Positions 29,126-48,469 of a stretch of DNA of 64,000 nt are shown here, in pieces (position 1 is the first letter of the stretch; every line of letters begins with the position of its first letter). The position numbers and the translations under genes are program-made. This DNA comes from Spirochaetales bacterium. Its GTDB lineage: Bacteria; Spirochaetota; Spirochaetia; SZUA-6; JAFGRV01. The notes under the pieces are model-generated. The model made no database searches, was not told the DNA's origin, and saw nothing but the letters and a program-made list of their open reading frames with translations. The stretch lies in contig JAFGHO010000117.1 in NCBI GenBank assembly GCA_016930085.1, positions 1-64,000 of the forward strand. Reading direction: 5' to 3'.

Positions 29126-29394
29126 ATTATCTCCTTGCAAAGATTTTATTTTCTTTATAATGGCAACCGGTCCTAATAAAAGCCTTTATATCTTTTTACA
29201 GGTTAAATATGATACTGTCAATGCCGGGCTTTTTCAAATTTCTTATCACCTCCGTCCCCCGTTTTCCCGCTTCATCCTATCCCCAGCCGGAACCGAAATG
29301 TCCGGCTGGACGATCGATCGGGCGGCTTCATTAATCTCCCCGCTCAGATCTCCACTTGCACACAATAAAAAAAGAATGTATCTTTTACCATACC

Positions 29395-30753
29395 ATGATA
29401 GCCTATTCGACGGAAGATCCTATTGTCGCATTAGCCTCGCCATCGGGAGAGAGTGCCATTGCCGTTATCCGGACTTCAGGTACCGATTCCATTGCACGCC
29501 TCGCACCACTCTTCAAGGGAACACGTGACCTTACGAACGCCTCAAGCCATGCCCTTCATCACGGCTGCATCATTGATCCTTCCACATTGGAAAAAATCGA
29601 TGAAATACTTGCTGCGGTCTTCCGGGGACCTTCAAGTTACACGGGGGAGGACGGTGTTGAATTGTACTGCCACGGCAGCATCCCGATCATTCAGCGAATC
29701 ATCATGCTTCTTACACAGCATGGCTTTCGCAAGGCGGGGCCGGGGGAATTCACCCTTCGTGCATTCCTCAACAAAAAAATGGATCTGACGCAGGCGGAAG
29801 CGGTGAACGAAATCATACGGGCCCAAACGGATAAAGCGCGCGCATTCGCCCTCAACCGGCTTTCCGGAAGCATACGAAACCGGATCGACGAAATCAAGAA
29901 GGAATGTGTCACGCTTCTGGCCGCTATCGAAGTACAGATCGATTATCCTGATGAAGAAATCGAAGCCGATAGTAACCTGAAAAAAGCGGTTGAAAAAATA
30001 GCTAATCAATGCAAGAAAATCCTTGCAACCTACGCGACCGGGAAAATAATCCAGGATGGAATCAGTATGGTGATCGCGGGAAGCACAAATGCAGGAAAAT
30101 CCACGCTTTTCAATTTACTACTTCGTGAAGACAGGGCGATCGTTTCCGATATTCACGGAACAACCCGTGATTATATCGAGGGAGTCATTTCTATCGAAGG
30201 AATACCCGTTCGTCTTTACGATACTGCGGGATTACGCGATACGGATAATCCCGTCGAAATCGAGGGAATCAGGCGGACCGACAGATTGATTGAAAACGCC
30301 CATGTCCTTCTCTATGTCATCGACGCGGGCTGTGGAATGACCGGACAATCCGGACGATTTATTGAAGCATATCAAAAAAAGACCCACACCATCGTTATCT
30401 GGAATAAAACGGACGTGACCTCCGTCCCCTGCCCGCCCGGGTTCATCCCGTTCAGCGCTAAAACCGGTAACGGGCTTGACGAATTGAACGAACTGGTTGT
30501 TAAAACCGTGATCGGTACATCGCCGGAGATGACGGGGGAACCTGTGATAGATTCTATACGACAGAAAGAATGTCTCGAGAAATGTCTCACATCACTCGGA
30601 GACTTTGAAAAGGGGCTTTCGGACGGGCTGCCGCTCGACGTTCTTGCAATCTGTCTTCAGGATTCGATCGAATCACTCGGAACCATTACCGGTGAAGTGA
30701 CATCGGACGATGTGTTATCCGAGATGTTCTCTCATTTTTGTGTCGGGAAATAA
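29395..30753 (+). CDS. mnmE: tRNA modification GTPase MnmE
   Basis: A 452-residue GTPase that, with MnmG, makes the 5-carboxymethylaminomethyl or related group on U34 of certain tRNAs. The N-terminal formyl-THF-binding domain (1-120) is followed by a helical region with an inserted G domain: GSTNAGKST, GTTRD, DTAGLRD, NKTD and SAKTG are all present. The C-terminal catalytic Cys is in CVGK, normally CIGK. The ATG at 29395 gives the usual N-terminus (DPIVALASPSGESAIAVIR) but has no visible ribosome-binding site. It is followed within 2 nt by mnmG. Confidence 0.97.
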   Translation: MIAYSTEDPIVALASPSGESAIAVIRTSGTDSIARLAPLFKGTRDLTNASSHALHHGCIIDPSTLEKIDEILAAVFRGPSSYTGEDGVELYCHGSIPIIQRIIMLLTQHGFRKAGPGEFTLRAFLNKKMDLTQAEAVNEIIRAQTDKARAFALNRLSGSIRNRIDEIKKECVTLLAAIEVQIDYPDEEIEADSNLKKAVEKIANQCKKILATYATGKIIQDGISMVIAGSTNAGKSTLFNLLLREDRAIVSDIHGTTRDYIEGVISIEGIPVRLYDTAGLRDTDNPVEIEGIRRTDRLIENAHVLLYVIDAGCGMTGQSGRFIEAYQKKTHTIVIWNKTDVTSVPCPPGFIPFSAKTGNGLDELNELVVKTVIGTSPEMTGEPVIDSIRQKECLEKCLTSLGDFEKGLSDGLPLDVLAICLQDSIESLGTITGEVTSDDVLSEMFSHFCVGK

Positions 30754-30755
30754 CA

Positions 30756-32651
30756 ATGGATTTTGATGCGATTGTCATCGGCGGCGGACACGCGGGCATA
30801 GAGGCATCCCTGGCCCTCGCCCGTCTTGAAAAAGAAACCCTTCTCATTACCCAGAACCTCGATTGTATCGGAAAAATGTCCTGCAATCCGGCGATCGGCG
30901 GTCTGGCAAAGGGAAATCTGGTAAGAGAGATCGACGCCCTTGGCGGCGAGATCGCCCGGCTTATCGACGCGACCATGATCCAGTTTAGAATGCTCAATAA
31001 AAGTAAGGGGCCGGCGGTTCAGGCGCCCCGGGCACAGGCGGACAAAGCCTCATACAGCCTGCTGGCCAAAAGGACACTGGAGCGGCAAAAGCATCTTGAG
31101 ATCTTCCAGGATACGGTGACGGATCTCCTCACCGATTCGGCCGGAAGAACGATACGGGGGGTGGTGACGGAACGGGGACGGAGGTTTACCGCAAAAGCCG
31201 TTGTTCTCACAACAGGCACATTCATGGAGGGCGTCATCTATATCGGGAGTTTCTCATGTTCTTCGGGAAGATTAGGAGAACCCGCCGCAATCGGACTCGG
31301 CGGCGCACTCCAGGAAAAGGGATTTTCAGTCGGACGGCTTAAAACAGGGACGCCCGCGCGGGTGCTTCGCGACTCCCTCGATTATAAAAAAATGAGCGGG
31401 CAGGCCGGCGATACCCGCATACAGCCCTTCTCATTTTCAAATGAGTCGATTACAAGGCCCGATGTCCCCTGTTACATTACGTATACAACGGAAAAAACCC
31501 ACGAAATAATTCGAAAAAACATCCACCTCTCCCCACTTTTCTCCGGGAAAATAAGGGGCGTCGGCCCCCGTTACTGTCCGTCGATCGAGGACAAGGTGAT
31601 GCGGTTTCCCGATCGCAGCCGGCACCAGATCTTTGTCGAACCCGAAGGCCTCGACACGGAAGAAATGTATCTGAACGGGATTTCATCTTCTCTCCCGGAA
31701 ACGGTACAGGAAGAGTTTTTACGGACAGTACCCGGTTTCGAACATCTCGTTATCATGAGGCCCGGTTATGCGGTCGAGTACGACTACCTCAATCCGCAGC
31801 AGCTTTATCCTTCTCTCCAGACAAAACGAATAAAAGGGCTTTTTATCGCCGGACAAACGAACGGAACATCTGGCTATGAAGAGGCTGCCGCCCAGGGGCT
31901 TGTCGCGGGAATCAACGCCTTCCTGTCGATGGAAAACAAGGAACCGTTGATTCTGTCCCGTTCGGAAGCCTATATCGGGGTGCTTATCGATGATCTGGTC
32001 ACACTCGGGACGGACGAGCCGTACCGGCTTTTCACATCCCGCGCGGAATACAGACTTTCTCTCCGGCATGATACGGCGGACATACGGCTTCTGGAAAAGG
32101 GATATACAATTGGATTGAAAAGCAGGGAAGCATATGACAACCTGCAGTTGAAACTGAAACATCTGGAAGAGGTAAAGGAACTCCTCCGCAAGCGGCGTAT
32201 TCGGGAGGAAGATATTGCAAAAACCCCGTCATTCGAAAAACATCTGGGGAAGAATCTGGAAGCCTTACTCAGGGATCCGGCGATACATATGAATGACCTG
32301 AAAGAGATAGAACAGGCACTGTCGCACCACGATGAAGGAATTCTCGTTCATACGGAACTCGATGTCAAATATGAGGGGTATATCAAACGCCAGGAAGAAC
32401 AGGTGAAACGTTTTCAGAAAATGGAATCCATGAAAATTCCCCCTGATTTTGATTTTGAATCGATAACGGGACTCTCTAAGGAAGCCCGTGAAAAATTCAT
32501 TGCGGTCCGGCCCGTATCAGTCGGGCAGGCTTCACGAATTTCAGGTGTCCGTTATTCCGATATCACGATACTGCTCTTTTATCTCAAAAAATCGGGGACA
32601 CTTAAAAAAACCGGCGCGCAACGGGGGACCGATACACTTACGGAAGCGTAA
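30756..32651 (+). CDS. mnmG: tRNA uridine-5-carboxymethylaminomethyl modification enzyme MnmG
   Basis: A 631-residue FAD protein and partner of MnmE. The FAD-binding motif is GGGHAG (residues 8-13). The family signatures CNPAIGG, GTPAR and the PGYAVEYD/PQQLYPSLQTK segment are present, as is the C-terminal MnmE-interacting helical domain. Length and architecture are normal. The start at 30756 is chosen over the TTG at 30738 because the Rossmann strand begins immediately (MDFDAIVIGGG). It follows the mnmE stop by 2 nt, so the pair is co-translated. Confidence 0.97.
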   Translation: MDFDAIVIGGGHAGIEASLALARLEKETLLITQNLDCIGKMSCNPAIGGLAKGNLVREIDALGGEIARLIDATMIQFRMLNKSKGPAVQAPRAQADKASYSLLAKRTLERQKHLEIFQDTVTDLLTDSAGRTIRGVVTERGRRFTAKAVVLTTGTFMEGVIYIGSFSCSSGRLGEPAAIGLGGALQEKGFSVGRLKTGTPARVLRDSLDYKKMSGQAGDTRIQPFSFSNESITRPDVPCYITYTTEKTHEIIRKNIHLSPLFSGKIRGVGPRYCPSIEDKVMRFPDRSRHQIFVEPEGLDTEEMYLNGISSSLPETVQEEFLRTVPGFEHLVIMRPGYAVEYDYLNPQQLYPSLQTKRIKGLFIAGQTNGTSGYEEAAAQGLVAGINAFLSMENKEPLILSRSEAYIGVLIDDLVTLGTDEPYRLFTSRAEYRLSLRHDTADIRLLEKGYTIGLKSREAYDNLQLKLKHLEEVKELLRKRRIREEDIAKTPSFEKHLGKNLEALLRDPAIHMNDLKEIEQALSHHDEGILVHTELDVKYEGYIKRQEEQVKRFQKMESMKIPPDFDFESITGLSKEAREKFIAVRPVSVGQASRISGVRYSDITILLFYLKKSGTLKKTGAQRGTDTLTEA

Positions 32652-32741
32652 CTTCTTCCGGAGACAATGTACTACGGAAGCCGTTTTCTCACGCCGGCAA
32701 ACCGGCACACGCAATGATTTTCGATGTAAGGATGGATACCA

Positions 32742-33392
32742 GTGAAACAACTCCTTGAAAGCGGACTCACCGAACTCGAACTCGGCTATCAGGAAGCCGA
32801 TATACTATCGCTTTCCTTGTTCATCCGTGAAATCGAACGGTGGAACAAAAACTTCAATCTCGTCAAGGCAACGGGGGATGACCTTGTCGTCAGACATATC
32901 CTCGACTCCCTTGCCGGTCTGCCGTTTTTTTCAAACACTCAAAGTGATACGACCGTCCTCGATATCGGTTCGGGCGCCGGATTTCCGGGTATCCCTCTTT
33001 CCCTTTTTCTTTCTTCCTGCTCTTTTACCCTGGCGGAAAGAAACAACCTGCGCGCGTCTTTCCTCAATAACATCCGCGCGCTGCTTCCTTTATCGAATGT
33101 AACTGTGTTCGAGGGAGATTACAGGCAGACAAAGAATAAATTTGATATCATCACCTTCCGGGCATTTACCTCTCTCGAGAAAGAGATCGGACATATAACG
33201 GAAAAACTCGAACCCGGAGGGAAAATCATCGCCTACAAAGGAAAACTCGACAAGACGGCGCTGGAACTCGCGATAATCCGCTCGTATGGGCTTTCCGGCA
33301 GGATCGAACCCATCCGTGTACCCTTTCTCGAGGAGGAAAGGCACCTTTTGATCGTCGGAGGCACGGACACACAAGCACCGCCTCAATTTTAG
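32742..33392 (+). CDS. rsmG: 16S rRNA (guanine-N7) methyltransferase RsmG
   Basis: A 216-residue SAM-dependent methyltransferase that modifies G527 (E. coli numbering) of 16S rRNA. The SAM-binding motif is LDIGSGAGFPG, and the family segments RWNKNFNLV-type and GRIEPIRVP are visible. The start is a GTG at 32742 with a weak AAGG upstream. It completes the common mnmE-mnmG-rsmG order, 90 nt after mnmG, and converges with the TPR gene, with 13 nt between the two stops. Confidence 0.95.
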   Translation: MKQLLESGLTELELGYQEADILSLSLFIREIERWNKNFNLVKATGDDLVVRHILDSLAGLPFFSNTQSDTTVLDIGSGAGFPGIPLSLFLSSCSFTLAERNNLRASFLNNIRALLPLSNVTVFEGDYRQTKNKFDIITFRAFTSLEKEIGHITEKLEPGGKIIAYKGKLDKTALELAIIRSYGLSGRIEPIRVPFLEEERHLLIVGGTDTQAPPQF

Positions 33393-33405: not shown

Positions 33406-34782
33406 TTAGCTCGCCGGGGGGCCGGTTTTAAATGAAATCCGATTAAAAAGACTGATGAGGGAGTCTTTATCGATAAGATCGATGAGTCTCGCTTCAACGA
33501 ACTGCTTGGCCCCTTCCGAAAAATCCCCCGCGTGAATGCAAAAAGCCCTTCCGGCGCGCAATTCCTTGCTTCGTGAATACAATTCCCTCAAAATAAGTTC
33601 CCCGACTGTGCCGCTCGAACGTATGAACCTGAAAAGAACCAGATCCTCCCATTTTTTCGTATTAATTTCGGTAAGGATATCGGTATACTGGCTTTTTACG
33701 ATGGTAATGTCGAGTATTTTGACCCTCGAGTTCGAAAAAAAATCGATGGTGATCTTTCTGCAAAGCGTGACGAATTCCGATGTCGGTGCAATCAGGAAAA
33801 CCTGAAGATTTTTGTTGGAATTCAACTCCTGATAAATCCCGATCTGATCGATGACGTCCTTATATCCGGGCTTCATCTTTATAATTTCGCGAAGGAGATT
33901 CAAAGCCCGTTCGATCTGCTGTAGTTTCACATACGCCGCCGCAAGCCGGTACATGAGTTCCACTTTTATTTCAGGCGCTATTTCCTCGTGACGCAATCCT
34001 ATTTCAAAATCCATAACCGCTTTATTATACTGCTTCTGATTGAGATTGATCGTCCCGGACATGAGCGCGGCGTTCGATCCTACCTTCGAGTCCGTTCTCA
34101 GATGTGAAAAAATAAGCAAGGCTTTTTCCTTGCTTTTCAACTCATAATAGCACTGCGCCAGTGCGAAAAGCGATTCCTTATCGTCAGGTTCATATTCCGT
34201 CGCCTTTTCCAGGAACCCGACCGCTTCATCGTATTTTTTAATTCGGTGCAGCCCGAGACCGAGAAGGCGGATTGTCTGTATGTGCTCGGGTTGTTTCTCA
34301 TTCGCATGAGAAAAAAGAACGACGGCTTTTTCGTAATTTTTTCTGAGATATTCGAGATAACCGAGATGGTAGTTGACCTGAAAATCACCCGTATTAAGAT
34401 TTCTCGCAACCACAAGTGCTTTGTAGGCTTCTTCATAATTCTTGAGTTTCAGCGCGGAAAGGCCGTGATAAAGACTGATATCGAACTCGTTAAGGTGCGG
34501 ATGAAGGGGACAGAGATCGAGCAAAATACTGTAATTTTTATATGCCTTTTCCCAGGACTCTTCCTTGAAATGAAGTTCCGCAAGGGCAAGTATCGCATCA
34601 GGATCACGGGGATTGACGGAAAGCTTTTTGTTCGCTATTTTCAGTATTTTATTTCTGTCCTTTTCACGAATGCGCTTTGGTTTGTTTTTGGTTGTCGACA
34701 TTTCCCTTCTGAAAAAAAAGCTGAAAAGAAAAACAATGGCAAAGAGGACGATGCCCACGATTATCCAGATAGTATACTCCAT
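33406..34782 (-). CDS. membrane-anchored TPR protein with Mrr-like C-terminal domain
   Basis: A 458-residue protein. An N-terminal membrane helix (residues 4-24) is followed by about seven to eight tetratricopeptide repeats (45-320). The C-terminal region (330-450) resembles a Mrr-type restriction-endonuclease-like fold: hydrophobic strands, then EDLVLFRFIRSSGTVGELILR, then a Cys-His and GAKQFVEARLIDLID segment. The usual catalytic D...(E/Q)xK triad is not clearly intact, so it may bind rather than cut nucleic acid, or be a pseudo-nuclease. Its topology would place the TPRs in the cytoplasm with one membrane anchor. It is divergent from the LysM gene. Confidence 0.75.
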   Translation of the reverse strand: MEYTIWIIVGIVLFAIVFLFSFFFRREMSTTKNKPKRIREKDRNKILKIANKKLSVNPRDPDAILALAELHFKEESWEKAYKNYSILLDLCPLHPHLNEFDISLYHGLSALKLKNYEEAYKALVVARNLNTGDFQVNYHLGYLEYLRKNYEKAVVLFSHANEKQPEHIQTIRLLGLGLHRIKKYDEAVGFLEKATEYEPDDKESLFALAQCYYELKSKEKALLIFSHLRTDSKVGSNAALMSGTINLNQKQYNKAVMDFEIGLRHEEIAPEIKVELMYRLAAAYVKLQQIERALNLLREIIKMKPGYKDVIDQIGIYQELNSNKNLQVFLIAPTSEFVTLCRKITIDFFSNSRVKILDITIVKSQYTDILTEINTKKWEDLVLFRFIRSSGTVGELILRELYSRSKELRAGRAFCIHAGDFSEGAKQFVEARLIDLIDKDSLISLFNRISFKTGPPAS

Positions 34783-34974: not shown

Positions 34975-35003
34975 TTGACAAACTTCAAAGAGAGCGTTAC
35001 GAT
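34975..35003 (+). promoter_or_regulatory. promoter of the LysM/transglycosylase genes
   Basis: A perfect TTGACA (34975-34980) and TACGAT (34998-35003) are 17 nt apart. The predicted start lies about 24 nt before the TTG start codon at 35034. Confidence 0.55.
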
Positions 35004-35033
35004 TTAAATTAATTCTATGTATGGGGAGGTGCT

Positions 35034-35975
35034 TTGAGTAATCATATAATTGGTATAAAGCTGGCTGACGGTTCTTTCTACCCCGTTCTTGAAGAAGGTT
35101 TTTTAGGAAAAAAACGCCTGGTACTGTCGACAGTGAGGGACAATCAGGAAAGCATGCAGATCGATTTTTATCGCGGCAAGGAAAAAGATATAGCGACATC
35201 GGAATACATCGGAAGCCTCGTCATTGAAAATATCGAACTGAAACCCAAACGGATACCGGAAATCGAGGTCATTATCGGGCTGGATGAAAACAACAAACTG
35301 AGTGCCGAAGCGCGAAATCTGGCATCCGACGACAAACAATCGCTTTCAGTCGTTCTTGAATCGCTGGACGAAGAGCGTACCTACGATATGCCGGAATTCG
35401 AAATCGGTGAAGATGTCGAAACAACTAAAGATTTCGAAGAGGAAGAGGAACCGCCCCAGGCGGATGAAGAGGAATCGATCGCGGGCGAAACATATCCGAT
35501 CGAAGCCGAGGACAGGCGTAAAACGCATCTGAAAAAGAAAAAATCCAATCCCCTCATGGCAATACTCTTTGTTTTTTTAGGCCTTCTTTTAATTGCGGGA
35601 TTGTCGGTTCTTATCTTTTGGGCGGTCAACCGGTTTTTCCCTACCCATCCTATAAATACCGGATCTACCGGGGATATAAAAAAAGAGACGACGACGTCGG
35701 TACGTGAAAGCGACGCCAGTGAAACGACCGTCACCGGGAAGGAAACGGAAACCGGTGTGGCGGAAGAAATAGAAAAAGACGAGGAAGAGCCCGCAAATAC
35801 CGTTTCAGGAGGTATCTATTATAAACTGAAATGGGGTGACACACTATGGGATCTCGCGGCAACGTATTACCGGGATCCCTTTCAATATTACAGAATATAT
35901 CGCCACAAACCAAACAAAATAACGGATCCGGACCTCATCTACGCGGGCCGGACAATATTTATTCCGGAAGAATAA
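35034..35975 (+). CDS. membrane protein linking an Hsp70 substrate-binding-like domain to a LysM domain
   Basis: A 313-residue single-pass membrane protein. Residues 5-110 resemble the beta part of an Hsp70/DnaK substrate-binding domain: YPVLEEGF then a VLSTVRDNQ segment, RGKEKDIATSEYIGSL, and KRIPEIEVIIGLDENNKLSAEA, in the same order as in DnaK. No ATPase domain precedes it. An acidic linker (118-160), a basic stop (161-170), one helix (173-197) and a periplasmic Ser/Thr/Glu spacer lead to a LysM domain (262-311) that should bind peptidoglycan. With no signal peptide, the N-terminus is expected in the cytoplasm. Start TTG with GGGGAGG upstream. A transglycosylase gene follows. Confidence 0.82.
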   Translation: MSNHIIGIKLADGSFYPVLEEGFLGKKRLVLSTVRDNQESMQIDFYRGKEKDIATSEYIGSLVIENIELKPKRIPEIEVIIGLDENNKLSAEARNLASDDKQSLSVVLESLDEERTYDMPEFEIGEDVETTKDFEEEEEPPQADEEESIAGETYPIEAEDRRKTHLKKKKSNPLMAILFVFLGLLLIAGLSVLIFWAVNRFFPTHPINTGSTGDIKKETTTSVRESDASETTVTGKETETGVAEEIEKDEEEPANTVSGGIYYKLKWGDTLWDLAATYYRDPFQYYRIYRHKPNKITDPDLIYAGRTIFIPEE

Positions 35976-36010: not shown

Positions 36011-38233
36011 ATGAATGGATTATTATCATTAATGAAAAGGCCGGCGGCTTTTTTTATTCTCGCAATTATATTGACGGCAGGCAGCTGTTCGCCTTCGTCG
36101 ATCTGGAATATCCCCTCAGACCGGCTGCGGAAGCAGATACAAAAATCGGATTACTCATTTTTAAAAGAAGCAACGATTAAAAGCTCCAATCTGGGAGAGG
36201 TAACGAGGCTGGGGCCCGGAGCTGCGTATTATTTTTATTACATTTTTCTCAAAGCGGGTTTCAGAGCGTACGCACTGCAGATGCTTCTTATAAGTTGTGA
36301 AAAAGAAAAAAAAATTTTCAGAGAGGAATCGTGGCTTCCGCTGCTCAGGCACCTTTTGAATGATAAAAATTACCCTGCCTGCGAAAAATACGCAAAAACC
36401 TTTATAAAAAAATACGGTGAGTCAAAAAGGGGAAAAGAAGGTAAGCGGATATTAATCGAGGCGCTCTACCGGCAAAAAAAGGATGAAGAGGTGGTGAAAT
36501 CACTCGAAACTTATTTTCACGAAGAAGAACCTTCTTTTCAGGATGATCCGGAACTTCTTCTCTTCAAGGCCGTTTCCTCGAGCAGGCTTAATACGGACGG
36601 ATGGAAAGACGACATCATCAGGCTTTTTCTTGAAATCGGTGACGCCGAAATCATCAAACGCGCCTACGATTACATTATCGGCGAGAAAGTGCTATATAAC
36701 GCGTTCGACGAGGACATGAAACGCTATATGGCGGCAAAGAACTCACTATGTCTCGACGACAGTGATGAAATAAAGGCGCTGGCGCTGCCTGTTATCGAAG
36801 CATATGTAAAAAGCATTGAAAGGCCGGACTTACGGACAAGGGCGATGATAAAAACCCTTGGCCTCACCTATCTTTCTCTCGACGAAGCGGGCCGCGGCGC
36901 GAAACTGCTTTCCTCCCTGTCGGCTGATCTTTCCGGAAAAAGCGCCCTCGATGCGTTCGAGATGGCCGGACGGTGTTACCGTAAAAACGAACAATATTCA
37001 CTCGCCGTCAAATATCTCGGCAAGGTCATCGACAGGTCGAAAAACGACGACCACAGGTCGAAAAACGACGACCAGAAAGAGCGGGCGGTCTGGTTTCTCC
37101 TTGACTGTATTCAGGAGCTATCGCCGGATTCATTTATCGAAGCCGCCGGGCGGTATGCCCCGCATTGGCGTGACCCTTCATATTTCGACGATGTGCTCGA
37201 GAAAGAAATCGCGGAACTCGTTTCACTGAAAAAATGGAAAACGATCTTTGCGCTTCACGATGTTCTCAAAGACCATATCTCCGATGAAATCGATTCACAG
37301 TTGAGCCTTCTCAGGGCGAGAATCCTTTCCCTGGGCTATCTGACGGTCGAGGGGGTTGACCGTACAAAAGAAATCAACCGGTTGCTGAAAAAAGCCGCTT
37401 CCGTCGGGGGCATGGAATATTCCGGATTTCTCGCATCCGCATTAACCGGTGAAACCCCGAGATTCTTCAGGAGCTTACATGGGAAGAACAAGCAAATTCG
37501 GCCCGAATCATTTTCCGGTATTGAAGCGGTAATTTCCGGATTTTTCGAATACGGCCTGCCGCTTGAAGGATACGAGATGATATCGGAAAACAAGGAAGAA
37601 CTCGGTAAAAACCTGTTACTGCACGCCTCACGGATGCTTTCCGAACAGGGGTGTGACCGTGAAGCCCTCCTTGTTGCCGCGTATTACGCATACAAGAAGA
37701 ATTACATACTCACCGGGGAAGAAATGCGATATCTGTATCCTCGCGCATTCGCTACCTTCATCGATGCACATGCGGAGAAACGGGAAATCAGAACACATCT
37801 GCTTTATGCACTTGTCAGGGAAGAAAGCGCCTTCGATCCCGCGATCGTTTCGTCGGCGGGCGCTGTCGGGCTGAGTCAGCTGATGCCCGAAACCGCATCG
37901 GACCTGGCCGGGTGGATGCGGCTCGAGGAGTATGACCTCTATGATCCCGAAACGAATATTTCTTTGGGTTCATACTATTTTGCCAGGCTATATCGATTGA
38001 TCGAAAGCCTTCCGAAAACACTGATCGCCTACAATGCCGGCATGGGAAGGTTAAGAAGCTGGGAAAAGACCTACCGCGGCTTTACCGACGATTTTTTTAT
38101 TGAATTAATTCCTTATAAAGAAACAAGGGGATATGTAAAAAAGATTATTGTATCCGCGGTCATCTACGCCTGCCTTTACGGGAAGGAATCCCCGAAACAG
38201 ATCCTTTCAGAAATACTTCCGGGCCTTTTTTAA
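36011..38233 (+). CDS. soluble-type lytic transglycosylase lipoprotein (Slt family)
   Basis: A 740-residue lipoprotein. The signal peptide ends in a relaxed lipobox LTAGSC (Cys 26), typical of spirochaetes. A long helical superhelix (about 40-580) resembles Slt70. The C-terminal SLT domain (about 590-720) has catalytic Glu in ALVREESAFDP, then GAVGLSQLMPETA and AYNAG. It cleaves peptidoglycan to anhydromuropeptides in the periplasm. The start at 36011 has AAGGA upstream; the frame is open to 35846 inside the LysM gene, and that part is discarded. It is 35 nt downstream of the LysM gene and probably co-transcribed. An exact 21-bp duplication lies within it. Confidence 0.92.
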   Translation: MNGLLSLMKRPAAFFILAIILTAGSCSPSSIWNIPSDRLRKQIQKSDYSFLKEATIKSSNLGEVTRLGPGAAYYFYYIFLKAGFRAYALQMLLISCEKEKKIFREESWLPLLRHLLNDKNYPACEKYAKTFIKKYGESKRGKEGKRILIEALYRQKKDEEVVKSLETYFHEEEPSFQDDPELLLFKAVSSSRLNTDGWKDDIIRLFLEIGDAEIIKRAYDYIIGEKVLYNAFDEDMKRYMAAKNSLCLDDSDEIKALALPVIEAYVKSIERPDLRTRAMIKTLGLTYLSLDEAGRGAKLLSSLSADLSGKSALDAFEMAGRCYRKNEQYSLAVKYLGKVIDRSKNDDHRSKNDDQKERAVWFLLDCIQELSPDSFIEAAGRYAPHWRDPSYFDDVLEKEIAELVSLKKWKTIFALHDVLKDHISDEIDSQLSLLRARILSLGYLTVEGVDRTKEINRLLKKAASVGGMEYSGFLASALTGETPRFFRSLHGKNKQIRPESFSGIEAVISGFFEYGLPLEGYEMISENKEELGKNLLLHASRMLSEQGCDREALLVAAYYAYKKNYILTGEEMRYLYPRAFATFIDAHAEKREIRTHLLYALVREESAFDPAIVSSAGAVGLSQLMPETASDLAGWMRLEEYDLYDPETNISLGSYYFARLYRLIESLPKTLIAYNAGMGRLRSWEKTYRGFTDDFFIELIPYKETRGYVKKIIVSAVIYACLYGKESPKQILSEILPGLF
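37033..37074 (+). repeat. 21-bp tandem duplication inside the transglycosylase gene
   Basis: The 21-bp unit 37033-37053 is repeated exactly at 37054-37074. It adds seven in-frame residues (RSKNDDH/RSKNDDQ) to the helical domain. Perfect identity points to a recent duplication or slippage event. Confidence 0.9.
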
Positions 38234-38302: not shown

Positions 38303-40789
38303 CTACATGTGCAGGAATTCCATATAACGGATGAGGTCAGTCGGAACCGGTTCACCGGCCTTTTCATACTTTCTTATCCTGCTCTCGATCTTTAGCATCT
38401 GCCGCTTTATGATATTCTGGTATTTCATCTCGATACCCAGGAAAACCGGCCGCTGACTCAGTCTGTCTCTGTCATTCTTTTTGAACGGACAGAATTTATA
38501 AAAAATTTCCCGGGAGACGGGATTGTGTTTGGGTATACCGTCGAACTCGTAAATCACCCAGGACATATAATCCCGGGTGAATCTGTCCTTGTCCGATCGT
38601 GTCTTTTTCACGAACTCCTTGACGCGTAGTTTTGCTTCCGGTGTAAGATTGGGGTTCTTTTTGTAGAAATTGATGTAATCGTAATACGCGCCGGTGAGCC
38701 CGCCTTCGACGGGATTCATCCAGTTCGCACCCGCTATCAGCCGATGCAACTCCCACCGGAAATGCCCGATCACCGCGAGCAGACTCTTGTATTTGTCGCC
38801 ATTGAACAGAACGGGAAGAAAAAGCCTCCCCATCGAATCACGCTTTGGTCCGTCGAGTTCCTGCCACATGAGCATTTTCGTTCCGTAAACAGGATACATA
38901 ACGAAGTTCGGAATAACTTCCTTCTTTATAATATCGCTTCCGTATTTGTGATGTATCACGACCTCCCTGTAAAACATCGAAAAATCACGCTGCCGCAGGT
39001 TGTTGATGATTTGCACCCATTGTTCGGCTTCGAGAAAAAGCTTGCCGGGAGGGCCCAGAATCGCGTTCGAACAGAGAATGGGAAAGGCCGTCGCGACCGA
39101 ACCGAAAACCATCCTGTATGCGGAAGAAATGACTTTCCGGATTTCGAATCGTATCTTGTCCTCCGGAGCGTCACGATATTCTTCCTCGAGTTTCTTTTTC
39201 GGTATTTTCTCCTGTTTTTTGAGAAGGTCCTTGAATGATTCACCCATTTCAGTGAGGGAAGGATTCGCGTGCTCCTTGTATATCTTTTCCAGAAAATAAG
39301 GAAGCGTCATGACCGGGATCGTCGCGTCGGTATGGAGATTCTTCATGAACGCCTGATCCACCACGTGAAGGTGGGTTTTGCTGACCAATGTTTCATCCAG
39401 TACGCCGAAATGAAGCATGATTCCGGGTATGAATTTCTTGAGATCCCCCGTAATCACCTTGAGAATGCATTTTTCATATAAACGCCAGTAGGCGGTCGCG
39501 ATCCTTCGTTTCAGTGAATTGAGTTTCGGTACATTCTCGAATTTGTTCTCGAATTTCTTGAAGCTTCTGAGGTTGCCGACAAAATCCGCATTGAAGGAAT
39601 CCCCCATTTCCGCGAACTGAAGGATTCTCGCCAAAAGATTGGTATACTTCGAGAACGCGCTTCCCGAGATTTCAGGCGACTCTGTCGCCTGGATACCCGC
39701 CCCGCGAACCGTTTCCTGCTTTTTTGCCTCGATCGTTCCGGCATCGATCCTGCTGAACGACTCCAGATTCGTATAGACGGGAAAGGCGGTTTTCAGATCC
39801 ATGCCGAAAAGCTGGAGGATATCCTTGCGAAACTTGAGGCTGTACTTGCCCAGATAGTGATTAAATCGAAGCGCCTTCTGATTATGAAGCCCTTGCGCCT
39901 TGAGCGCCTGGGCCAGCCATCCATTGGCGGAAAAAAGCGTATGGATAAGTTTGTAGATCGTATTTGAAATCCGCTCATATTCTCCGACCGCCCGGAAAAG
40001 CGCGCCGCTTAAAAATTGATGGAGATACCGTAATACTTCCTTGTCTTTCTTCAAAATCGGAGCGAGCAGGCCGTCCGGAAAAGCCAGAAGCCGCTTGAAA
40101 AAAAGAAATTGCGGGTAATCGATGATCGTGTCGATCCGTATCTTCTCACTTTCATCCACCGTCCCGAGATCGGCTGAGGCGCTCAGGACATTCGGATCCC
40201 ATTCCATGGAAGGCTGGAGGCCCTTGCTTGCGTAGCGTTTTTTCACATGGGAAGCATAGTCCGACAGGGAACTCCCCGCCCTCTCCGATACGGGATTCTC
40301 CTGCCGGCCCGGCGGGGAAAGATTGACGGAAAGCGCGATACCGTCCGCGACCTTGTTGAGACTGCTCCAGAGGGATTTGGAGCCGGTGAGAAGAAAATCG
40401 GTAAAGGTAATGCGGCTGACGATCGATCTGAGAACCTGGAGACTAAGGGCGGCTTTACCCTCGAGTTCGCCGAAAAAATCATTACCCCCGGAGGGAATGA
40501 CGGAAATGACGCAGTCAGTCAACGCGCGTACCGATTTCCTGTACGGTGTATCGCCCGATCCCTCCGGTATGCCATATATCGATTCGCCTTTAAGAAGACC
40601 GACCCGCCTGCTTTTTCCGATAATCTCATCGGGTTTGAGTCCGTTCACCTCGACATTCGAACAGAGCAGTTCGGCCAGACCGGAATGGAGGAGATTGACC
40701 GCCTTCTGGCGTTCCCCCTGCAGAAGCAGTACCGTCCCCTGGGTGACATTTTTCTTTGTCACCGGATTCCTGATATCGACAACATCCAT
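38303..40789 (-). CDS. large protein with an N-terminal cyclic-nucleotide-binding-like domain
   Basis: An 828-residue soluble protein. Residues 5-125 look like a cNMP-binding (Crp-type) beta-roll, starting with QGTVLLLQGERQ and ending ISVIPSG; the phosphate-binding GE...R.A core is not clearly conserved. The remaining 700 residues are mostly helical, with no motif I can name. Family members with this layout occur in spirochaetes, but none with a known role that I recall. It has no visible ribosome-binding site before its ATG. It converges with the transglycosylase gene. Function not proposed. Confidence 0.8.
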   Translation of the reverse strand: MDVVDIRNPVTKKNVTQGTVLLLQGERQKAVNLLHSGLAELLCSNVEVNGLKPDEIIGKSRRVGLLKGESIYGIPEGSGDTPYRKSVRALTDCVISVIPSGGNDFFGELEGKAALSLQVLRSIVSRITFTDFLLTGSKSLWSSLNKVADGIALSVNLSPPGRQENPVSERAGSSLSDYASHVKKRYASKGLQPSMEWDPNVLSASADLGTVDESEKIRIDTIIDYPQFLFFKRLLAFPDGLLAPILKKDKEVLRYLHQFLSGALFRAVGEYERISNTIYKLIHTLFSANGWLAQALKAQGLHNQKALRFNHYLGKYSLKFRKDILQLFGMDLKTAFPVYTNLESFSRIDAGTIEAKKQETVRGAGIQATESPEISGSAFSKYTNLLARILQFAEMGDSFNADFVGNLRSFKKFENKFENVPKLNSLKRRIATAYWRLYEKCILKVITGDLKKFIPGIMLHFGVLDETLVSKTHLHVVDQAFMKNLHTDATIPVMTLPYFLEKIYKEHANPSLTEMGESFKDLLKKQEKIPKKKLEEEYRDAPEDKIRFEIRKVISSAYRMVFGSVATAFPILCSNAILGPPGKLFLEAEQWVQIINNLRQRDFSMFYREVVIHHKYGSDIIKKEVIPNFVMYPVYGTKMLMWQELDGPKRDSMGRLFLPVLFNGDKYKSLLAVIGHFRWELHRLIAGANWMNPVEGGLTGAYYDYINFYKKNPNLTPEAKLRVKEFVKKTRSDKDRFTRDYMSWVIYEFDGIPKHNPVSREIFYKFCPFKKNDRDRLSQRPVFLGIEMKYQNIIKRQMLKIESRIRKYEKAGEPVPTDLIRYMEFLHM

Positions 40790-42839: not shown

Positions 42840-45800
42840 TTACCATCTGTTTTCCCGTTCGAGCAACCCGGCCAGGAATCGGGCGGTATGAGAGTCCTTT
42901 TTTTTCAACGCTACCTTTTCCGGCTGTCCCTGTGCCACAATCCTGCCGCCCCCTTCGCCGCCTTCGGGCCCGAGATCGATAATCCAGTCCGCTTCGGCAA
43001 TAACATCGAGGTTGTGCTCGATGATGACGACCGTATTGCCGCAGTCGGTGAGCCGGTGCAGCACCCCGACCAGTTTCGATACATCGGCCATATGCAGACC
43101 GATCGTCGGCTCGTCAAGGATATACAGGGTATGTTTTTCATTACGGAGTTTTTCCTTATTTCGGGGATCGGGATGCTTTTCCTGAGGCCCCGCTTTCACG
43201 AGTTCCGAAACGAGCTTGATCCGCTGCGCTTCTCCGCCGCTTAAGGAAGGACTTCGCTGCCCGAGAGAAAGATACCCCAGACCGACCTCGGAAATAAGCG
43301 AAAGGGCGTGCCGGATCGATTGGTGCGCGGAAAAGAAAGCGGCCGCCTCCCCGGCATCCATGGCAAGAACATCCGCAATACTTTTATCCCTGTACCGCAC
43401 TTCACGGGTCTCATGCGTAAACCTGGTTCCGTTACATGTTTCGCAGAGGACCTCGACGTCGGGGAGGAAACTCATCTCGATCTTCCGGACCCCCTGTCCC
43501 TTGCAGGATTCACACCTCCCCCCTTCGACATTGAACGAAAACCGTTCGGGCCCGTACCCCCTCACGCGGGAATCCGTCGTACCCGCGAAAAGACGCCGGA
43601 TATCGGCCCAGAACCCGACATATGTCGCGGGACACGAGCGCGGCGTTCTTCCGATCGGGGTCTGATCCACTTCGAGGACACGGCCGATTTTCTCCCATCC
43701 CGATATACTCCCGCATCCCGAAAGGACCGCTCTACCGGCCGGGAAACCGGATGCTGTTTCCCCGCTCTTCCCCTTTCCCCGCGGTCGCCTCATCTGCAAG
43801 AGGGAACTCAAATTTCTGTAGAGGATATCGCGGACGAGGGTGCTTTTTCCACTCCCGCTGACACCGGTCACGCAGACCAGTCTTCCAAGTGGTATCGCGA
43901 CGTCAAGGTTTTTGAGATTGTGAAGGTTCACATTGCCTATCCTCAACCATCCCCGGTCTTCCTCCGTCCCCACGCTTCGTTTTTTTCTTCCGGAATATCT
44001 TTTTTCCGGCGAACGAAGGTATTCTCCGGTCAGGGATTCCCTGCAGGAAAGCAATGCCTCGGGCGTTCCCTCGAAAACGAGTCTTCCCCCATTGATACCG
44101 CCGCCCGGGCCGAGGTCGATAATATGATCCGCATCACGTATCGTCTGATCGTCATGTTCGACGACCACGACCGTGTTCCCCTTCTCCCTGAGTCCCAGAA
44201 GGGTACGCATAAGATGCCGGTTGTCGCGCGCATGAAGGCCGATCGTGGGCTCGTCGAGGATATAACAGACCCCCCTGAGGTTCGATCCAAGCTGGGCCGC
44301 GAGTCGAATACGCTGTGCCTCGCCGCTGCTCAATGTCGGTGCCGGCCGGTCAAGGGAGAGATAAGGTAAACCGACCTCACGGAGAAAATCGAGCCTCACC
44401 GATATTTCCGCACAGATATCGCGGGTAATTTCGGCTTCCCGGCCCGAGAGGTCGAGACCTGAAAAGAATACGGCCGCGGCCTCGATAGAGAGCGCCGTTA
44501 TCGACGTGATAGTCCGTCCTTTGAACTTCACGTGCAGGGCTTCCTCCCTGAGCCTGCCGCCCCGGCACACTGAACAGGGGACCGTTTCCGTTTCGTTTCC
44601 GTATTCATGCATATTTTTCGAACGTGAAGCCCGCCTCCCGCTTTTTTTATCCGACGTCGATATTTTTATCCCGGTTCCGTCGCATGCCGGACAGGCACCG
44701 TGACCGGAATTAAACGAAAAAAGCCGGGGATCGGGTTCACGGAAACTACGGTCACAGCGGGGACAGACCCGTCTTGTCGAAAAAACAGCCTCCGCCTGCT
44801 TCTCCGCACCCTTTCCGGGCTTTCCGGTTTGAGCGATATAGATGACCCCTTTTCCGATCCCGAGCGCCTTTTCAATAAGCCCCATAAGCTCCCGCGCCCT
44901 TTTCCTCGTGACCGTCACCTCGGCGACGGGAAGATCGATCGTATGCTCCCTGAACCGGTCCAGACGCGGCCAGGGAGAGGTGGAAACCAGCGTTCCGTCG
45001 ACCCGGAGATATGGATATCCCTCAGAAGACGCCCACGCGGCAAGATCGGTATAGTATCCCTTGCGGGAGGCAACAAGCGGGGCATAGACGACAACCTCTT
45101 TTCCTTCGAAATCGTCCGTCACACGTTTTCTTACCCCGGAAATCGTTTGCGAGCCGACACGGACCCCGCAGTCCGGGCAATATTGCGTACCACCCCTGGC
45201 AAAAAGCAGGCGGAGAAAATGGTATACTTCCGTCATGGTAGCCACGGTGCTTTTCCCGCCCCCCCTGCTTGTCCGTTGTTCGATAGCGACCGCGGGCGGA
45301 ATACCGGAGACAAGATCGACATCGGGGCGTTTCGCAGGCCGGACATACTGCCGTATATAGGCATTCAGCGATTCGCAATACCGCCTTTGGCCTTCCGAAA
45401 AAAGGATATCGAACGCGAGGGTGCTTTTACCGCTTCCGCTCACCCCCGTTATTACCGTCAGCCTGTCATGCGGAATTGAAACATCGATATTCCTGAGGTT
45501 GTTCTCCCGTGCGTGCCGGATATGTATCTTCTTTCCGTTCCCGCCGGCAGGTCCTGCCTTTTCCGTTTTCCCGCATAACGATGCGTCGCTGAAAGCGGGC
45601 TTGCCTCCGTCCCGGCCTGCGAACACCGTCCGGAGGGCTTTCCCCGTGTAGCTTCGCTTGCACCCGGCAACCGTATGAGGGTGTCCCGTACACACCACCT
45701 CGCCGCCGTCTTCTCCCCCCTCCGGTCCGAGATCGATAATCCAGTCGGCGGAACCGATTACCTGAAGATTGTGTTCGATCACCACCACCGAATTGCCCGC

Positions 45801-48440
45801 TTCACAAAGGAAACGGAGTGAAGCGAGAAGCTTCTCGATATCCTCGCCGTGGAGACCCGTGGTCGGTTCGTCGAGAAGAAAAAGAAGATGTTTCGCCGTT
45901 TTCTTCCTTCCGGCCGTCCGGGCAAGATACCCGGCGATTTTGAGCCGCTGGGCTTCACCCCCGCTCAATGTGGGGACACTCTGTCCGAGAGCAAGATAAC
46001 CGAGTCCCACATCACGGAGTGGTTTGAGTGCGCGAAGCACGTCTTCGTTTTCACCGAAGACCTCATATGCTTCGTCCACCGTCAACTCGAGTACATCGGC
46101 GATCGACATGTTCATATCGCCGCGCGATGGCTCCTTGAGTTTTACTTCGAGGATTTCCCTGCGGTACCGGCGTCCGTCGCATTCGATACAACGAAGGTAT
46201 ACATCGCTTAAAAACTGCATCTCGATATGCTCGAAACCCGATCCCCTGCACGCCGGGCATTGACCCGCTTTCGAGTTGAAACTGAAGGCCCCCGGGCCGT
46301 AGCCCTCGCGGCGCGCGTGGTCGGTCGCGCTGAAGATCTTTCGGATGGCATCGAGGGCGCCGACATAACTCGCGGGATTCGACCGTGTCGTCTTTCCTAT
46401 CGGGGATTGATCGACCATGACGACATCGTCGATCAGCCGGTGGCCCCTGATCTCGCGGTGCTCCCCCGGCCGGTCTGCGGGGTGCGCTTTGATCCTGCAG
46501 AGTGCATTATAGCAGACATCCTGTATCAGGGTCGATTTTCCCGATCCGCTGACACCGGTGACACACACGAAACGGTTCAAAGGTATGAGGACATCGATGT
46601 CTTTCAGGTTATGGGCGCAGGCCCCGATGATCTCGATACAGGGGCCTTCGGCCGGGCTGTCATTACCACCTGAGGAAATCGGACGTTGTCCTGATTTCCT
46701 CAGGTACGCGCCCGTTTTGGATACCGGTGATTGTAAAAGTCCCGCGACATCACCGCAATACACGATCCCGCCCCCCCGTTCTCCCGGTCCCGGCCCCATG
46801 TCGACCACAACATCGGCACACCTGATCACCTCCGGATCGTGTTCGACGACAATCAGTGTATTCCCCGCGTCGCGCAGCCGGTGGAGAACGGAAACAAGCC
46901 GGCCGATATCGCGCGAATGCAGCCCGATACTCGGCTCATCAAGGATAAAAAGGGTGTTGACAAGCGAGGTGCCGAGTGCGGTTGTGAGATTGATGCGCTG
47001 TACTTCCCCGCCGCTCAAGGTTCTGGACTGCCGGTCGAGTGAAAGATAGCCGAGGCCGACATCGACAAGATATCCGAGGCGGCAGAGTATTTCATCGAGA
47101 AGCATCCCGTACGCCTCCCCAGACGGACGATTTTCGGGATCGCCCGCTTCTTTCAAACCAAGAAAGAAGGCCCGGCATTTATCGATAGGAAGAAGCATCA
47201 CCTCATGAATCGATTTTCCTTTTCCCGGCCCGCCGCCGAGCCGCCACAACAGCGACTCCATTTTGAGCCGCGTCCCCCCGCAGCCGGGGCATTTCCTGTA
47301 CATCCGGTATTTGGAAAGCAGAACGCGTATGTGCATCTTGTAGCTTTTCGATTCGAGCCACCGGAAAAAGCGCCGCACACCGTACCATACACCATCGTCG
47401 AATTCCCCCTCGCCCTCGAACACCCACTGCCTTTGCCGCATGGTGAGATCGCGCCACGGGACAGAAAGGGGTATCTTTCGTTTCTTCGCAAAGTGTTCGA
47501 GTTCGGTCTGGCATACGCCGTAGGTTTTGGTCTGCCACGGTTTGACGGCGCCCCCTTTCAGGGTTTTCGACGGATCGGGCACCACCAGTGACTCGTCGAT
47601 ATCGATGATTCGCCCGAATCCGTGGCACGCCGTGCACGCCCCGATCGGTGAATTGAACGAAAACGCCCCCGGCACCGGGTCCTCAAAATGGATTTTGCAA
47701 TCCGGGCAATGAAGATCAGCCGAATAGTTATGCGTCGAAAGCACCCGGCGCTCCGAATCGAACAGACGAATCGTAACAAGTCCCCTGCCGTTTCTGAGTG
47801 CCGCCGTGAGGTCGTCGACAATCCTCGACCGGACGCCGTCCGAGAGGACAAGGCGGTCCTGGATTACTTCGAGTACTTCGTCCTTTTTACCGAAGAATCG
47901 TTCGTACCCCTGGGTAAGGAGGGCGGCTTTCACTTCCTCTTCCGTGAAGTTATGCGGTATGGGAACGGGAAAGGTGACGGCAATCAGTCTTTTTTTTTCT
48001 TTTGACAGGAAAGACAGAATATCATCCGCTATGCTTTCGGGCGTATCGCGCCGCACCCGGCGCCCGCACCCCCCGCAGTAAAGCTGCGCCGCGCGGGCAA
48101 AGAGAAGCTTGATATAATCATTGAGTTCCGACATGGTACCGACCGTCGACCGTGATGTCCTCACGGGATTGACCTGGTCGATCGCGATCGCGGGCGGAAT
48201 CCCCTCTATCCTGTCCACCCTGGGTTTGTCCATCCGGTCGAGAAATTGCCGTGTGTAGGGGGAAAAGGTCTCGACATAACGCCGCTGCCCCTCCGCGTAG
48301 AGGGTATCGAAGGCCAGGGATGATTTCCCCGAACCGCTTACACCCGTGATAACGATTAGCCTGTTGAGCGGCAACCGTAAATCGATTCCCTTGAGATTAT
48401 TCTGGCGGGCGTTTTTAACGATTATCGATGTTTCCGGCAT
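42840..48440 (-). CDS. uvrA: double-length excinuclease ABC subunit A (tandem UvrA)
   Basis: A 1866-residue protein made of two complete UvrA units in one chain; ordinary UvrA is about 940. Four ATP-binding sites are visible: GVSGSGKS at about 33, 632, 998 and 1527. Signature sequences are LSGGEVQR, LSGGEAQR, LSSGEAQR and LSGGEAQR, so only the third departs from LSGGE. Each unit has CxxC zinc-binding modules. UvrA finds bulky DNA lesions as a dimer and loads UvrB; the tandem form would be a covalent dimer. Comparable fusions are known in Chlamydiae. The start at 48440 has GGGGA upstream; an in-frame GTG lies at 48452. Confidence 0.95.
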   Translation of the reverse strand: MPETSIIVKNARQNNLKGIDLRLPLNRLIVITGVSGSGKSSLAFDTLYAEGQRRYVETFSPYTRQFLDRMDKPRVDRIEGIPPAIAIDQVNPVRTSRSTVGTMSELNDYIKLLFARAAQLYCGGCGRRVRRDTPESIADDILSFLSKEKKRLIAVTFPVPIPHNFTEEEVKAALLTQGYERFFGKKDEVLEVIQDRLVLSDGVRSRIVDDLTAALRNGRGLVTIRLFDSERRVLSTHNYSADLHCPDCKIHFEDPVPGAFSFNSPIGACTACHGFGRIIDIDESLVVPDPSKTLKGGAVKPWQTKTYGVCQTELEHFAKKRKIPLSVPWRDLTMRQRQWVFEGEGEFDDGVWYGVRRFFRWLESKSYKMHIRVLLSKYRMYRKCPGCGGTRLKMESLLWRLGGGPGKGKSIHEVMLLPIDKCRAFFLGLKEAGDPENRPSGEAYGMLLDEILCRLGYLVDVGLGYLSLDRQSRTLSGGEVQRINLTTALGTSLVNTLFILDEPSIGLHSRDIGRLVSVLHRLRDAGNTLIVVEHDPEVIRCADVVVDMGPGPGERGGGIVYCGDVAGLLQSPVSKTGAYLRKSGQRPISSGGNDSPAEGPCIEIIGACAHNLKDIDVLIPLNRFVCVTGVSGSGKSTLIQDVCYNALCRIKAHPADRPGEHREIRGHRLIDDVVMVDQSPIGKTTRSNPASYVGALDAIRKIFSATDHARREGYGPGAFSFNSKAGQCPACRGSGFEHIEMQFLSDVYLRCIECDGRRYRREILEVKLKEPSRGDMNMSIADVLELTVDEAYEVFGENEDVLRALKPLRDVGLGYLALGQSVPTLSGGEAQRLKIAGYLARTAGRKKTAKHLLFLLDEPTTGLHGEDIEKLLASLRFLCEAGNSVVVIEHNLQVIGSADWIIDLGPEGGEDGGEVVCTGHPHTVAGCKRSYTGKALRTVFAGRDGGKPAFSDASLCGKTEKAGPAGGNGKKIHIRHARENNLRNIDVSIPHDRLTVITGVSGSGKSTLAFDILFSEGQRRYCESLNAYIRQYVRPAKRPDVDLVSGIPPAVAIEQRTSRGGGKSTVATMTEVYHFLRLLFARGGTQYCPDCGVRVGSQTISGVRKRVTDDFEGKEVVVYAPLVASRKGYYTDLAAWASSEGYPYLRVDGTLVSTSPWPRLDRFREHTIDLPVAEVTVTRKRARELMGLIEKALGIGKGVIYIAQTGKPGKGAEKQAEAVFSTRRVCPRCDRSFREPDPRLFSFNSGHGACPACDGTGIKISTSDKKSGRRASRSKNMHEYGNETETVPCSVCRGGRLREEALHVKFKGRTITSITALSIEAAAVFFSGLDLSGREAEITRDICAEISVRLDFLREVGLPYLSLDRPAPTLSSGEAQRIRLAAQLGSNLRGVCYILDEPTIGLHARDNRHLMRTLLGLREKGNTVVVVEHDDQTIRDADHIIDLGPGGGINGGRLVFEGTPEALLSCRESLTGEYLRSPEKRYSGRKKRSVGTEEDRGWLRIGNVNLHNLKNLDVAIPLGRLVCVTGVSGSGKSTLVRDILYRNLSSLLQMRRPRGKGKSGETASGFPAGRAVLSGCGSISGWEKIGRVLEVDQTPIGRTPRSCPATYVGFWADIRRLFAGTTDSRVRGYGPERFSFNVEGGRCESCKGQGVRKIEMSFLPDVEVLCETCNGTRFTHETREVRYRDKSIADVLAMDAGEAAAFFSAHQSIRHALSLISEVGLGYLSLGQRSPSLSGGEAQRIKLVSELVKAGPQEKHPDPRNKEKLRNEKHTLYILDEPTIGLHMADVSKLVGVLHRLTDCGNTVVIIEHNLDVIAEADWIIDLGPEGGEGGGRIVAQGQPEKVALKKKDSHTARFLAGLLERENRW

Positions 48441-48469
48441 TGAAATCCCCACGGAACGGAAAATCCCGG

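Follow-up and report, generated by a model that had tools for sequence, protein, structure and literature searches.

A membrane-anchored Hsp70-type substrate-binding domain joined to LysM and encoded beside an MltS-type lytic transglycosylase: a candidate ATP-independent adaptor of spirochaetes

Introduction

Hsp70 substrate-binding domains (SBDs) are usually viewed as one half of an ATP machine. The locus described here raises the question of what such a domain may do in a membrane protein with a LysM domain at its other end, where its groove appears to be selected without the machine and its binding site is altered. The gene lies at positions 35034..35975 (+ strand) of a stretch of 64,000 nucleotides from a Spirochaetales bacterium (contig JAFGHO010000117.1), hereafter called the window. 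It is an intact open reading frame of 313 amino acid residues with a TTG start, and it has full-length relatives. A ribosome-binding site, GGGGAGG (35023..35029, + strand), is located 4 nt 5' of the TTG, and a consensus scan found a promoter-like TTGACA-17-TACGAT with 10/12 matches upstream of the gene (34975..35003, + strand).

The N-terminal region is an Hsp70 substrate-binding beta domain

Sequence, profile and fold searches independently assign residues ~6-110 (35049..35363, + strand) to the Hsp70 substrate-binding beta domain (SBDbeta). The best PDB chain in a phmmer search was 3h0x, the peptide-binding domain of Kar2 (E=1.7e-7), and 66 distinct Hsp70-type PDB sequences were below E=1 (best 60 of 66 listed). 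The Pfam HSP70 profile matched the window protein with E=1.7e-8 and 33.6 bits (cut-off 20.6), and matched 32 of the 36 family members. Eight SBDbeta strands were modelled by AlphaFold2, with pLDDT values mostly of ~65-83; these are modest because only the window, L001 and L002 sequences were used as input. According to Foldseek, the best 50 PDB matches of both the full-length and the SBD-only models are Hsp70-type SBDs, and the SBD-only model gave a TM-score of ~0.7 and an rmsd from ~1.8 Å across ~110 residues. The sequence-only reading of this DNA had recognized the order of the DnaK SBDbeta in these residues, including IPEIEV..GLDENNKLSAEA, a segment that aligns with 21 residues of DnaK; it had also named the lack of a match to the Hsp70 fold as the outcome that would speak against it, and with both models the match was obtained. 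These searches rule out a chance resemblance to Hsp70. We also ruled out an artefact of fusion or frameshift, for example a fragment of DnaK, as about 30 relatives from different genera share the same full-length architecture, mostly at the same locus.

Like the SBD of Hsp70/DnaK, the domain is a beta sandwich of eight strands with all strands and loops in the same order, and it retains the DNQ motif (Gln433 included) as well as the positions of the hydrophobic pocket. In contrast to Hsp70/DnaK, the window protein is membrane-anchored, has Lys in place of Glu402, and shows neither the nucleotide-binding domain, nor the conserved hydrophobic interdomain linker (LLLDV), nor the helical lid (SBDalpha). 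The same first reading had remarked on the missing ATPase part, in agreement with an SBD that begins at residue 6 and matches only positions 415-548 of the HSP70 profile; no actin-like ATPase domain was found in the open reading frame, and the upstream neighbour is a TPR gene on the opposite strand. In the place of the lid, residues 111-171 are acidic, of low confidence and without helix in the AlphaFold2 model. Since three defining features of Hsp70 (the ATPase domain, the conserved linker with the ATPase-facing loops, and the lid) were looked for and not found, this protein should not be classed as an Hsp70 chaperone.

Conservation of the groove and of the segment behind it

Column entropy was calculated for the groove (DnaK 401-404, 426-429 and 433-438) and for the positions that in DnaK face its ATPase domain, both of which we took from established knowledge of the DnaK structure and transferred by the phmmer alignment. 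In the 36-member family, mean entropy was 0.83 bits in the groove, 2.25 bits in the ATPase-facing columns and 1.47 bits on average. Of the random column sets drawn, 0.16% were as low as the groove and 0.06% as extreme as the ATPase-facing columns. The same two column sets gave 0.165 and 0.169 bits in 19 DnaKs of the clade. This difference (0.83 versus 2.25 bits here, ~0.17 for both in DnaK) indicates that coupling to an ATPase is lost while the groove is still under selection; part of the contrast could reflect strand versus loop positions, although those ATPase-facing loops are otherwise frozen in the 19 control DnaKs. Furthermore, one ATPase-facing loop is two residues shorter than in DnaK.

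The groove, which is among the best-conserved parts of the SBD and in this respect consistent with peptide binding, differs from that of DnaK throughout the family. Lys9 (35058..35060, + strand) occupies the place of DnaK Glu402; this position is Lys/Arg in 36/36 relatives and Glu in 19/19 DnaKs. Met/Leu404 is replaced by Ala/Gly, position 426 is Leu/Val, Ala429 is mostly Val and Thr/Ser437 is mostly Gln, with Gln433 fixed in all 36 members. These family-wide substitutions point to a fixed ligand, different from that of DnaK.

Two alternatives bear on this pattern. The first is that the SBD fold is a structural relic, kept as a stable beta sandwich or a protein-protein surface and not through its groove. 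The Hsp70-like protein FAP363 (PDB 6u42, 8glv), which is among the solved relatives, carries an Hsp70-type SBD fold within a structural assembly, so SBD folds can act as structural parts; however, FAP363 is a eukaryotic axonemal protein without LysM, and the groove studied here is far better conserved than the average column, which makes a relic improbable. The second alternative is a quality-control sensor, whose SBD would catch unfolded cytoplasmic or nascent membrane proteins and signal to the wall or tether them there. Both the SBDbeta fold and the conserved groove would suit such a role, and the SBDbeta of lidless DnaK can bind peptides in vitro. Against it, the fixed groove changes are family-wide, there is neither lid nor ATP cycle, the neighbouring genes concern the cell wall and division and not the stress response, and no enzymatic or signalling domain was found outside the membrane. 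A fixed ligand fits the groove changes, the missing lid and ATP cycle, and the wall and division neighbourhood better, so sensing of unfolded proteins in general is disfavoured and we give it little likelihood.

An acidic-aromatic motif, YDMPEFEI (residues 117-124; 35382..35405, + strand), lies behind the SBD and is conserved in relatives: P[EDN]F is found about ten residues past the SBD in 31/36 of them, where shuffled tails would give 1.9. It may serve the protein as self-ligand, or as a further docking site. A self-associating scaffold can be imagined on this basis, in which the PEFE segment fills the groove of its own or of the next chain, and the SBD oligomerizes and clusters LysM, perhaps also MltS, with no outside ligand. 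The frequency of the motif argues for it, the fixed basic residue at 402 would suit an acidic ligand, and the short model shows a strand at residues 122-131. Lid-truncated BiP reportedly forms oligomers with the linker in the groove. The titles of PDB entries 7a4u and 7a4v likewise refer to lid-truncated BiP oligomers. The predicted strand, however, has a pLDDT of only ~61 and is missing from the full-length model, and the strict motif is absent in five of the 36 relatives, all of which retain Lys/Arg402. We regard a scaffold without an outside ligand as rather unlikely.

Membrane topology and the LysM domain

A single membrane helix was predicted at residues ~173-200 (35550..35633, + strand) from hydropathy, Lys/Arg counts and the AlphaFold2 model. 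It is preceded by an acidic linker, of low pLDDT, that ends in a basic juxtamembrane KKKK (35406..35546, + strand). Six Lys/Arg residues flank the helix before it and one after it in the window protein, and over the 36 relatives these numbers are 182 and 42. According to the positive-inside rule, this excess predicts a single-pass protein with N-in/C-out topology; no N-terminal signal sequence was found in the window protein. Hydropathy and the positive-inside rule thus agree with the arrangement proposed beforehand from the letters of the DNA, namely a cytoplasmic SBD, a membrane helix and LysM beyond the membrane.

The helix is followed by a disordered, predicted periplasmic linker (35634..35813, + strand) and by the LysM domain at residues 262-312 (35817..35969, + strand). 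In the window protein LysM reaches 20.0 bits in Pfam, 0.9 bits short of the cut-off of 20.9; in 33/36 relatives it was matched at E<=0.01, with a best E of 4.7e-13. The NCBIfam model PRK11198 gave a partial match (E=3.8e-9, 37.1 bits, cut-off 134) that covers the LysM end alone. The E. coli LysM family of PRK11198 and single-pass inner-membrane LysM proteins likewise have a C-terminal LysM with the pattern GDTLWD..Y...P..Y..I...N.I.NPD.I..G..I.IP, but the window protein differs from them by the cytoplasmic Hsp70 module ahead of LysM.

Gene neighbourhood and a probable link to MltS

The commonest gene order is mnmE-mnmG-rsmG-(TPR, divergent)-SBD-LysM-SLT-uppP-ftsK, and the window keeps this order except for uppP-ftsK. 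The conserved upstream genes, named mnmE, mnmG and rsmG from established gene-family knowledge, are at 29356..33392 (+ strand). They are followed by the divergent neighbour (33406..34782, - strand), a membrane-anchored TPR protein of 458 residues in conserved synteny. This TPR protein is itself highly conserved, with up to 68% identity, and is nearly always found at the locus of the SBD-TM-LysM gene; it shows weak matches to Mrr_cat (C-terminus) and FlcA (repeats).

The next gene (36011..38233, + strand) encodes a lytic transglycosylase of the BB0259/MltS family with 740 residues and an SLT domain, which matched the NCBIfam model of the BB0259 flagellar lytic transglycosylase (NF047373) with 475.9 bits (cut-off 234). 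This co-directional gene is the orthologue of Borrelia BB0259/MltS. A gene of this type is directly downstream in 17 of 21 same-class regions, window included, often with uppP and ftsK after it. In the remaining four regions, uppP (L046, L057 and L058) or ftsK (L136) is next. The 35-base gap between the SBD-LysM and SLT genes shows no + strand terminator-like site in a site scan, so co-transcription of both genes is likely. MltS is an enzyme, whereas the SBD-TM-LysM protein has no enzymatic domain.

BB0259 (MltS) is a membrane-anchored lytic transglycosylase required for the periplasmic flagella and normal shape of Borrelia (PMC8517470, PMC12279116); assembly of the periplasmic flagella requires it (PMC8517470), and it releases anhydro-muropeptides (PMC12279116). 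The adjoining BB0259-type gene would fit a dedicated flagellar factor, which would position MltS to open the peptidoglycan for the flagellar rod. The SBD-TM-LysM gene was found in 37/45 flagellated genomes (those with FliG) and in 6/16 non-flagellated ones (Fisher p=0.003, uncorrected for kinship). However, it is present without flagellar FliG in G035 (99% complete) and G060 (96%), and in G035 it adjoins ftsK (L136); several flagellated genomes lack it, and some non-flagellated lineages may have altered walls too. Some apparent absences are divergence, since the syntenic place in G038 holds a diverged SBD-TM gene without LysM. In G044 and G050, another gene is found at that place. A strictly flagellar role is weakened because presence and absence of the gene do not track flagella exactly, and we consider a dedicated flagellar factor rather unlikely.

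Distribution and modularity of the family

Most of the 60 closest genomes contain relatives, which are mostly full-length and show 23-55% identity where aligned. When the phylum was sampled evenly, a relative was present in 20/24 genomes of the same class and in 8/125 of other classes (manual count, E<1e-25); outside its own class, the protein is found in a few families. One region (L130) shows the order SBD-LysM, SLT, mnmG, which we take to be TP0042-TP0044 of T. pallidum, the species being our assumption. The class carrying this protein thus seems to include the syphilis spirochaete. PMC4403809 names TPASS_0042 as a LysM protein and nothing more.

In a tree built from 50 SBDs, a branch with 100/100 support separates the SBD-TM-LysM family, an OmpA-bearing close paralogue and the Borrelia-like gene from DnaK, short DnaKs and a J-adjacent SBD; the placement of several long rows is unsure. 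LysM is lost and SBD-TM retained in four lineages (L042, L053, L056 and L058), one of which (L056) has a very long acidic linker, so the link to peptidoglycan is not essential everywhere. The paralogue has an SBD of the same clade and a helix, with OmpA, also peptidoglycan-binding, in place of LysM; it was found only in the window's own family, in L039:8998-10221 (+), L043:8217-9314 (+), L119 and L120. The LysM losses and the exchange of LysM for OmpA indicate that groove and membrane anchor are the stable core and that wall binding is an exchangeable second end.

In Borrelia-like genomes (L042, L138), a syntenic SBD-TM gene is immediately upstream of the BB0259/MltS-type gene; this strongly diverged version no longer has LysM. 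From gene order, BB0260 is presumably its Borrelia counterpart.

Further SBD genes were observed in the same set of genomes. G025 has a second, strongly diverged SBD-TM-LysM gene (L041:8385-9236, -) near one short DnaK-like gene and several genes that resemble response regulators. The window's own genome encodes, on contig C69, a second SBD-only Hsp70 protein (L040:8790-9452, -) of 221 residues, without OmpA or LysM and with a partial match to TIGR02350 (8.2e-13), directly followed by a gene for a 209-residue protein with a J-domain and HEAT repeats (L040:8160-8786, -), and a FapA gene adjoins. Because the comparable neighbourhood in L042, and less clearly in L041, contains a short, lidless DnaK, this SBD-only protein seems to have lost its ATPase half.

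A proposed transmembrane adaptor

The SBD-TM-LysM protein probably serves to tether a cytoplasmic partner to the wall. We give about an even chance to its being an ATP-independent adaptor in the membrane, with one cytoplasmic peptide in its groove and a grip on peptidoglycan, working beside MltS. Of this proposal, the analysis shows the fold, the architecture, the conservation pattern and the gene neighbourhood, and infers the topology, the binding of a peptide, its identity and the partnership with MltS. In such an adaptor, the cytoplasmic SBDbeta, freed from the ATPase domain and the lid, would bind a specific extended peptide in its groove without ATP; this would probably come from one fixed partner and may be acidic-aromatic, and the PEFE segment behind the SBD may itself be the ligand, either tethered or swapped. 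One helix would cross the inner membrane, and LysM, on a flexible periplasmic stalk, would grip peptidoglycan, so that a cytoplasmic or membrane-associated machine could be held or positioned at peptidoglycan sites. It would most likely do so together with the MltS-type lytic transglycosylase encoded by the next gene. More tentatively, and with a lower likelihood, an entire bacterial class may have made the peptide-binding half of Hsp70 into a receptor that spans the membrane, works without ATP and recognizes a single fixed peptide of the cytoplasm. It would relay to MltS, as the remodeller of peptidoglycan, where a cytoplasmic machine (division, cytoskeleton or flagellar export) is placed or what state it is in, and its wall end (LysM or OmpA) would be exchangeable. 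The scaffold and the flagellar factor considered above overlap with the adaptor, and the likelihoods given here do not sum to one.

Bitopic adaptors of the RodZ type are comparable, with a cytoplasmic protein-binding domain, one helix, a periplasmic part and a location near cell-wall genes; RodZ, unlike the SBD-TM-LysM protein, binds MreB through a helix-turn-helix domain. We know of no membrane helix in FAP363. If a fixed peptide is bound, the protein would physically connect the cytoplasm to the wall, in bacteria that depend for shape and motility on flagella resting on that wall, and would be an unstudied partner for MltS, which matters for flagella, shape and peptidoglycan shedding.

The separate domains are already known. 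In the literature searched, neither their combination nor its spread nor the groove signature was found, no publication joined an Hsp70 SBD to LysM, and no Borrelia publication dealt with BB0260. NCBIfam has no model for the SBD-TM-LysM protein, which is apparently undescribed.

Other genes of the window

Three further open reading frames of the window were recorded. The product of 38303-40789 (- strand) has 828 residues and a weak N-terminal match to a cNMP-binding domain, and is otherwise without known domain. The 1870-residue product of 42843-48452 (- strand) resembles a double-length UvrA, with UvrA interaction and DNA-binding domains and several pieces of ABC ATPase. Finally, 6560-11752 (+ strand) encodes 1731 residues with beta-helix, CBM6, LamG and bacterial Ig domains, and is probably a large secreted carbohydrate-binding protein.
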